64,000 nt of DNA from assembly GCF_001953745.1 (NCBI RefSeq), contig NZ_LWLN01000001.1, forward strand, positions 2,046,001-2,110,000, written 5' to 3'. Of this stretch, positions 11,983-60,934 are shown piece after piece. Positions within the stretch are counted from its first letter, which is position 1. Each line of letters starts with the position of its first letter. The notes below the pieces were generated by a model. That model searched no databases and was not told the DNA's origin. It worked only from the letters and a program-made list of their open reading frames with translations. The stretch comes from Natrinema saccharevitans. Its GTDB lineage: Archaea; Halobacteriota; Halobacteria; Halobacteriales; Natrialbaceae. Made by a program: the position numbers and the translations under genes.

Positions 11983-12324
11983 CGGATACTCGGCCAAATC
12001 GAACGGCCGAGAGCGAGGTCCGAGTGCTGCGAGGACCTCGCGACCCGAGGGAGGGCAGGCCGTCACCCGATTACGACCGCGAGCGAGGCCGGAGGCCGAG
12101 CGAGCGGGCCGACGACTGACGTGGAGACCCGCGCCGCGGGTCGGAACGGAAGGAAGAGTGTCCTCGTGAACGGAGTGAACGAGGCTCGGAAGACGCAACG
12201 CGTCTTCCGGTGCTTTTCATCGAAGCTAAGCGGAGCGAAGCTCCGCGAGGTCCGAGAGAGTTCTGCTCTCTCGAGATTTTGCCGAGGGCCGGCGAAGCCG
12301 GTCCGCAGAGCAAAAGTTCGTTCC
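11983..12324. other. 342-bp intergenic hairpin array between convergent genes
   Basis: No gene is seen. The right half holds consecutive short hairpins: GGAAGACGC/GCGTCTTCC (12188-12208, loop AAC), CGGAGC/GCTCCG (12231-12245, loop GAA), CGAGAGAG/CTCTCTCG (12253-12273, loop TTCTG) and CCGGC/GCCGG (12289-12301, loop GAA). Between the first two is CTTTTCATCGAAG (12213-12225), which recurs inverted at 43241. It could end transcription in both directions. Confidence 0.6.
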
Positions 12325-58691: not shown

Positions 58692-58883
58692 ACTGGGAAC
58701 AACGATGGAACACAATCGTATAAACGTACCGCTCGGGGCACCCGCGGACGGTTACGCGACGCGCTCGAGGGCCGTCGAGCGGCGCTATCGTAACCCCAAT
58801 CGGTTACTCGAGCGGGCCGATACGGCTCGGCTCGGATCCGCGGAAAAAGGTCGGCTCGAGCGGGGCGGCCGAAGAACGACCGC

Positions 58884-59635
58884 TTACCCGCGTTTGTCCG
58901 GCATCGTCGAGTGGCGGGCGGTCCCGCGCATGTCCGCCCGCTGGGACGGCGGCGGTGCCATCGTCGAGTGTCGGCTCGGCCCGCCCGAGGCCGTGCCCCC
59001 GCTCCCCGTCGCCGCCGAGTCCCGAGCCCAGCAGCCCCTCGTCCTCGTCGGCGGCTTCGGCCTCCGCAGCCTCGTCCCCGGCCGTCGTGTCGTCCGCGTC
59101 GCTCTCGGCCGTCCCGGCGCGTCGCTCCTCGAGTCGCGCCTTCAGTCGCGACACCTCGTCCCCGAAGTCGGCGAACGAGTCGCGCATCGCCGACCGGAAC
59201 CCGTCGCCGAGGTCGTCGGCCGACGACTCGGCTCCGCTCTCGCTTTCCGTCGACTCGGCCGGTTCGCCGATCGCTTCCTGCAGCTCGCCGACGGCGTCCC
59301 CGAGCCCGCCGTCGTCCGCTCGGTCGGCGAGCCTCGAGAGCCGGAGCAACCGCTGGAGATCCGCGACGTTCTCCCGCTCGCCCCGTGCGATCGCCTCGGG
59401 GATCGAGTCCGGCTCCGAGCCGTCCTCGAGCGTGTCCAGGCCGACCGCCGAAAGCAGGTCGTCGGGATCGGCCGACTCGAGGATGTCGTCGGCCTCGCGT
59501 GCGGTCTCGAGCGGGTCGGATTCGGCGTCCTCGTCGCCGCCGGTGACGAGCGAGCCGCCGCGCTCGTCGGCGTCGTGCATCGTCGGCGTCGTGCAGTACC
59601 TCGCGGACGCGGTCCCGGAGTGCTGCGTCGCTCAT
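58884..59635 (-). pseudogene. Frameshifted acidic protein gene of the glycine-zipper cluster
   Basis: A long frame begins MSDAALRDRVREVLHDAD at 59635 but breaks at a perfect 16-bp tandem duplication (59564-59579 and 59580-59595). The second frame then reads ERGGSLVTGGDEDAE and acidic helices to about 59005. At a run of five C (58996-59000) the GC3-rich frame shifts again to one ending GTARHSTMPDKRG and stop at 58884. Removing 16 bp and one C gives an exact 244-codon frame. As it stands only a 258-residue frame from an ATG at 59580 (to 58804) is open. It has no recognised family. Confidence 0.6.
59564..59595. repeat. Perfect 16-bp tandem duplication
   Basis: TCGTCGGCGTCGTGCA occurs twice head to tail. 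It lies in the first part of the frameshifted gene. The junction creates the ATG (59578-59580, minus strand) of the shorter reading frame. Confidence 0.9.
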
Positions 59636-59699
59636 CTGTGTCTGTGTCGCTTCGTTCTCGCTGGTCGTCCCCGCGACGGGACACGATGCGGTCGGTCGA

Positions 59700-60398
59700 C
59701 TACTCGGCCTCGGCCGCTTCCGTCTCCGAGTCGTCCGCTTCCTCGCCGGTCACCGTCTCGACGATCTCCGCCGTCATCTCCTCGCGGCTGAGGTTGGCCT
59801 TCACGCCGACGTCTTTCGCGATCGACTGCAGGTCGCTGTAGGACAGCACCCCGAGGAAGTCCTCGAGGGTGTCTTCCCGCAGGTCTTCGATCTCTTCGAC
59901 GGACGGGTCGCCGTCCGAGTCCGCCGGTTCGTCGATCTCCTCGCCGCCCTCGGTTTCCGACTCGGTCCCGTCGCTGTCCTCGCTTTCGCCGCCGACCCCC
60001 TCGAGAAGCCCTTCGACGCCGCCGCCCTCGGTGACGCCGTTCGCCATCGACTCGAGGGAGTCGCGGCCCCCGATCTCCGAGATCGATTCCCGGACGGCGT
60101 CCGCGACCGCCGTCCGAACCTCGGCCGGCAGTTCGCCGAGTTCTTTGCCGTCCTCGAGACCCTCGGCAACCGTCTCGTGGACCCCGCGACCGACGGCGGT
60201 CCCCAGTTGCCGGCCGAACTGCTCGCCGAACTGGCGGCCGACCGCGGTCCCGATCTCGCCGCCGTCGATGCTGTCCTCGATGCTGCCGTCCCCGAGCATG
60301 TCGGCCACGTCGATCTGTGCTTTCATTTCGTCGGCGACCATCCCCTTCAGCCCGGACTCGTTACTCACGGCGATCACCGCCGCTCGAGTCGCGGCCAT
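59700..60398 (-). CDS. Glycine-zipper protein with C-terminal SAP/Rho-N-like region, unknown
   Basis: 232 residues. Residues 49-66 form a glycine zipper IGTAVGRQFGEQFGRQLG (Gly every fourth residue), continued to about 75. A helical region follows, then an acidic linker (SEDSDGTESETEGGEEIDE). The C-terminus FLGVLSYSDLQSIAKDVGVK resembles SAP or Rho N-terminal-like helices that bind nucleic acids (inference). It shares the zipper with the next gene upstream. No known family. The start MAATRAAVIA is the first ATG after the previous stop. Confidence 0.7.
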   Translation of the reverse strand: MAATRAAVIAVSNESGLKGMVADEMKAQIDVADMLGDGSIEDSIDGGEIGTAVGRQFGEQFGRQLGTAVGRGVHETVAEGLEDGKELGELPAEVRTAVADAVRESISEIGGRDSLESMANGVTEGGGVEGLLEGVGGESEDSDGTESETEGGEEIDEPADSDGDPSVEEIEDLREDTLEDFLGVLSYSDLQSIAKDVGVKANLSREEMTAEIVETVTGEEADDSETEAAEAE

Positions 60399-60418
60399 TG
60401 CGAAGCCGGCTCACGGGC

Positions 60419-60934
60419 TTACGCTTCCTCCTCGGCTTCGGCTTCCATTTCTTCCTCGTCGGACGCGTCATCGCTCCCGTCCGTCGCCTCCTCGGCGTCG
60501 GCGTTGGCGTCGGTCTTTTCGCCGCCTTCGTCATCGCCCTCCGCTGCCGTTTCCTCTTCGGAGGCCCCGTCTTCGGACTCCGCGCTCTCCTCGTCGTCCG
60601 ATTCCTCGGACTCCTGACTCTCCGATTCTGACTCGTCCGACTCCTCGTCGGCCGTCTCCTCGCCGTCGGCGACGCCGCTTTCCCCCTCTGCCACCGACTC
60701 GGCCTCGTCGCTACTGAGCAGTTCCTCGACGACCACGTTCCCGATCGTCCGACCGAGCGACTCCCCGACCTTCCGGCCGACGAGCGCGCCGATCTGCCCG
60801 CCCAGCACCGCGCCGAGGAGCACGTCCTCGTCGATCTGGTCCTCCCACCGAGTGCCCTCGACGAGCTGGTCGACGTCGATATTCTCCGTGATCGCCTCCG
60901 TATCGATCCGCTGTGTGATTGATTCGTCGCTCAT
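60419..60934 (-). CDS. Glycine-zipper acidic-tail protein, unknown
   Basis: 171 residues. N-terminal 75: MSDESITQRIDTEAITENID then LLGAVLGGQIGALVGRKVG, with zipper IGALVGRKVGESLGRTIG at 48-65, a possible membrane-associating helix. The last 95 residues are almost only Glu, Asp, Ser, Ala (tail SEEETAAEG...). Its start overlaps the stop of the upstream small gene (ATGA). The zipper matches its neighbour at 10 of 18 residues. Function unknown. Confidence 0.72.
   Translation of the reverse strand: MSDESITQRIDTEAITENIDVDQLVEGTRWEDQIDEDVLLGAVLGGQIGALVGRKVGESLGRTIGNVVVEELLSSDEAESVAEGESGVADGEETADEESDESESESQESEESDDEESAESEDGASEEETAAEGDDEGGEKTDANADAEEATDGSDDASDEEEMEAEAEEEA

Follow-up and report, generated by a model that had tools for sequence, protein, structure and literature searches.

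A conserved haloarchaeal gene interrupted by a 16-base tandem duplication and a second frame lesion in Natrinema saccharevitans

Gene neighbourhood and layout of the interrupted gene

The window analysed here is a 64,000-nucleotide stretch of the main contig of Natrinema saccharevitans (G000:C1:2046001-2110000, where G000 denotes this genome). At 58884-60934 it holds three adjacent uncharacterised genes, a run that is conserved in relatives. The gene under study occupies 58884-59635 on the minus strand; relatives carry its homologue as a single intact gene of 254-304 codons, and in this record it is interrupted twice. Upstream of it lie a beta-propeller (PQQ_2) gene, a glycine-zipper-like gene, and a related glycine-rich gene, and these upstream genes and the homologue of the broken gene keep the same order in three relatives. 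The upstream neighbour in the conserved module (59700-60398, minus strand) encodes glycine-rich repeats and shows no family above cut-off. The further module neighbour (60419-60934, minus strand) gives a weak, sub-cut-off glycine-zipper match and is locally similar to the 59700-60398 product; the two products appear to be distantly related paralogues with glycine-zipper-like repeats. In three of four relatives, a further match of the 60419-60934 product, at 32-40% identity, falls where the neighbour gene lies. The gene was recognised at five of six loci from other genera; at four of the five it follows a glycine-rich gene, neighbours outside the window being named from sequence appearance rather than from family searches. 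At the sixth locus (L130), the gene was not flagged in the locus scan, yet the profile search places it there.

The preliminary description of this DNA had reported a 16-bp tandem duplication that breaks a reading frame and whose junction creates an ATG, and both sequence inspection and Tandem Repeats Finder bear this out for the record. The unit TCGTCGGCGTCGTGCA is present twice, head to tail, at 59564-59595 with zero mismatches (period 16, 2.0 copies, 100% match). The match run equals the period exactly, leaving a microhomology of 0 at the ends of the unit. As 16 bases amount to +1 mod 3, the extra unit imposes a +1 frame shift on the minus-strand gene that starts at ATG 59635. The open reading frame (ORF) from this ATG begins MSDAALRDRVREVLHDADD and thereafter runs in an arginine-rich wrong frame. 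The junction of the two units builds another ATG at 59578-59580 (minus strand), in the frame of the gene's middle segment, and the ORF that starts there begins MHDADERGGSLV. Initiation at this junction ATG omits the first 13 native residues, around half of the predicted first helix.

A second frame lesion lies approximately 565 bases downstream of the duplication, where one extra C in the run at 58996-59000 (C5, or G5 on the coding strand) causes a further +1 frameshift; the run is one base shorter in all three nearest relatives. The locus consequently consists of three segments in three frames, the broken frame by which pseudogenes are recognised. The first segment (59596-59635, minus strand; MSDAALRDRVREV) is in the native frame and opens with the native ATG at 59635-59633. 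The middle segment (59003-59580, minus strand) is in the native frame if read from the junction ATG. The third (58884-58999, minus strand) lies in another frame; it contains the native stop at 58886-58884 and the undecayed conserved C-terminus of the family (...PSRHSTMAPPPSQRADMRGTARHSTMPDKR...). The extra C displaces this conserved end, RHSTMAPPPSxRADM...STMPDK, out of the frame of the minus-strand ORF at 58804-59580, which continues past the second lesion into a non-homologous tail. Searching the genome with the family profile likewise returned three pieces, covering profile positions 14-133 and 165-252 in an ORF of length 275 and positions 244-283 in an ORF of length 85. The profile matches this one locus only, with no second copy of the gene in the genome. 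The preliminary description had further proposed that the frame is restored when one unit is lost. This is correct as far as the C run at 58996-59000; downstream of it the conserved C-terminus would stay in the wrong frame, and a gene reduced to one unit would still be broken by the second lesion.

Conservation and distribution of the family

Three nearest relatives were compared with the window, namely G012 (N. mahii), G025 (N. thermotolerans), and G015. DNA alignment shows that exactly 16 bases are missing from each of them relative to the window, and the extra C of 58996-59000 is absent from all three. More broadly, the downstream frame was matched in 26 of 29 Natrinema genomes, that of N. 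saccharevitans included. All 25 other Natrinema homologues are single ORFs of 254-304 codons with both conserved ends, a start of the form MSDSxLxDRVxEVL and an end of the form RHSTMAPPPSxRADMR...RHSTMPDK; their openness is partly selected for, because the ORFs were chosen by motif score, and each nevertheless spans both ends. The preliminary description had named a double unit shared by all relatives as the finding that would speak against its proposals. The opposite was found, since a tandem pair of at least 8 bases occurs in the first 150 nt of none of the 25 homologues.

Within the family Natrialbaceae, the profile has matches in 105 of 125 genomes and in 27 of 29 genera. Read by eye, the table of the 105 matching genomes shows a split between frames in N. 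saccharevitans only; wherever several pieces fall at one locus, an identical ORF length is reported in every such genome except this one. Two genomes (G029 and G057) give weak partial matches only, and an in-frame TGA occurs within a homologue at G120:C11:422750-423559. Three of the 28 other Natrinema genomes lack the gene; both neighbours are missing there as well, apart from G004, which has a weak match to one neighbour. Its presence in 105 of 125 genomes and its lack in three of 28 congeners indicate a gene that is common but dispensable. We infer that the loss of this uncharacterised haloarchaeal gene in N. saccharevitans was tolerated because it is dispensable.

Searches with the gene product returned no family above cut-off in Pfam or NCBIfam and no match in PADLOC. 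Matches in PHROGs were weak only (best E 0.0057), and the best hit of a PDB sequence search had an E of 0.35. An AlphaFold2 model built from a 3-row alignment has a mean pLDDT of 58.7; its N-terminal part is helical and confidently predicted, the first helix spanning residues 3-25 and the mean pLDDT being around 89 over residues 1-20. Foldseek comparison of the model with the PDB gave no match at an E of 0.001 or better.

Origin and consequences of the two lesions

A chance tandem repeat was rejected as the source of the duplication. Simulated 464-kb sequences (20 from an order-2 and 20 from an order-5 Markov model) contain zero perfect tandem pairs of period 16-40, whereas the real 464 kb of chromosome contain one pair of period 16 and two of period 30. 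Among the seven lineage-specific insertions of 5-80 bases in this stretch, the duplication is the sole perfect tandem one. A 16-base direct repeat can in principle shed one unit through slippage, and a tandem copy without microhomology is unusual for slippage. The lack of microhomology here speaks against simple slippage as the origin of the second unit.

Several comparisons bear on the age of the lesions. In the first and last segments, the distance between this genome and intact relatives is about as small as the distances among the intact relatives. In the middle segment, the 192 codons compared between the window and G012 show 13 synonymous and 22 non-synonymous changes, and the 214 compared between G012 and G025 show 17 synonymous and 24 non-synonymous ones, so that the non-synonymous share resembles that between intact relatives. 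Undecayed ends together with a normal non-synonymous share imply that constraint acted until very recently, or that the lesions are not real. Of the 45 columns without variation among the 25 intact homologues, three hold a non-conservative change in the window's copy (L to P, R to G, and L to F). Leave-one-out deviations for the intact homologues range from 0 to 3 and are mostly 0, the value of 3 belonging to one divergent intact homologue. Judged on these residues, the deviation may count weakly against a pure artefact.

Taken together, the evidence is best explained by a young, lineage-specific pseudogene with two independent indels, a reading to which we assign a probability of roughly 0.6 with a culture origin included. 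The gene would have been inactivated by the 16-base tandem duplication near its start and by a one-base expansion of the C/G run near its end, and we infer that both lesions exist in the living strain and not only in the record. Translation from 59635 would yield some 19-20 native residues followed by the arginine-rich wrong frame. If translation restarted at the junction ATG, the product would carry a foreign tail and be missing both the conserved C-terminus and the first half of helix 1, and it would probably be non-functional. Neither the product started at 59635 nor that started at 59580 would include the conserved C-terminus. With a second, separate break near the gene end, the locus looks more like a commonplace gene broken not long ago, or like a sequencing flaw, than like a switch.

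The main rival is that flaw, an assembly or sequencing artefact in which the 16 bases are an unmerged contig-join overlap or a consensus error, the extra C is a homopolymer error, and the gene is intact in the cell. It is distinctly less probable than a pseudogene and deserves to be taken seriously; an assembly or culture mutation had already been raised in the preliminary description. The undecayed flanking segments and the duplication junction without microhomology speak for it, and the second lesion is a homopolymer step, a single-base change of a kind that is a common sequencing error. A re-sequencing report on haloarchaeal strains judges single-base losses in poly-C and poly-G runs to be likely sequencing errors (PMC11834397). 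On the other hand, two errors within one 750-base gene would be a coincidence, and the record is not unusually error-laden, given that its lineage-specific indel counts resemble those of G012 and G015. Distinct indels of a length not divisible by three, counted over the surrounding 464 kb after removal of repeated rows, number 43 in the window's genome (50 rows), 23 in G012 (26 rows), and 42 in G015 (43 rows). Conserved genes split between frames occur at a similar rate as well (6 of 320, against 5 of 339 and 11 of 324 in two relatives), a crude figure from hand-counted multi-frame rows in a gene set that includes false antisense ORFs. Most rows marked 'stops' in that table were taken as such antisense ORFs, and the broken gene is not among its rows. 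A generally error-rich assembly is consequently not supported by the 464-kb comparison with G012 and G015. Two further irregularities were recorded relative to these genomes. The window carries a specific indel cluster at 12234-12301 and 13189 (three single-base losses and an 8-base insertion), and just beyond the window end, at G000:C1:2111926-2113202, a gene conserved in G012 and G015 is apparently split over two frames with a stop.

Other explanations concern how a true lesion arose or whether it is reversible. One or both lesions may have appeared after isolation and become fixed in the sequenced stock, an unlikely but plausible course of events. Such a laboratory mutation would suit the very young appearance of the lesions and the dispensability of the gene within the genus, and indels, a 6-bp duplication among them, are described for laboratory haloarchaeal strains in the same report (PMC11834397); nothing, however, points to culture over nature. 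The exact, microhomology-free duplication might alternatively be a 16-base target-site duplication left by the excision of a mobile element, yet no element occupies the site in the 25 relatives, and we consider this origin very improbable. Both a culture mutation and an element footprint are special cases of the pseudogene explanation, and for that reason the confidences given here overlap. The preliminary description had suggested a reversible switch (phase variation), in which a unit number of one or two toggles the gene on and off. A perfect 16-base direct repeat of +1 mod 3 at the gene start has the form expected of such a device, and one-unit relatives read the first and middle segments in a single frame. 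The proposal is nevertheless poorly supported and ranks as highly improbable: the conserved C-terminus stays out of frame owing to the second lesion, more than one unit is found in none of the 25 relatives, and the 105 matching genomes contain no other frame-split copy. Moreover, the repeat comprises two units rather than a tract, with no microhomology to re-create the duplication. Literature searches listed no paper describing this locus or a haloarchaeal 16-base switch. The least probable variant of all, barely credible in our estimation, joins a population-level switch in the 16-base unit with a consensus error in the C run. If it were true, one-unit cells would make the full protein, and two-unit cells would make the junction-ATG form without the first half of helix 1.

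As a mechanism, the lesion matters little, being one more broken gene or a flaw in the record, and the gene should be annotated as twice frameshifted. The more useful by-product is a protein family without a name, with both ends strongly conserved and a conserved gene neighbourhood, present in 105 of 125 genomes of the taxonomic family.

Comparison with known systems

The locus resembles three kinds of known systems to different degrees. Phase-variable contingency genes, which are switched by simple sequence repeats, share with it a repeat length that is not divisible by three and a position at the start of the coding region. However, the present repeat has two 16-base units instead of a tract, the unit number does not vary between relatives (all carry a single unit), and a change in that number would not yield an intact gene, because the C run at 58996-59000 would still shift the frame. 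Tandem duplications mediated by microhomology, as reported in fungi, are likewise short, gene-inactivating, and in principle revertible. In the present case, no short repeat marks the ends of the duplicated unit, and reversion would leave the gene still broken. The closest likeness is to frameshift pseudogenes formed by short indels or tandem duplications, in which a conserved gene that is intact in near relatives and has no second copy is broken in one lineage. From these the locus differs in nothing material, although both ends of the gene here are still undecayed.
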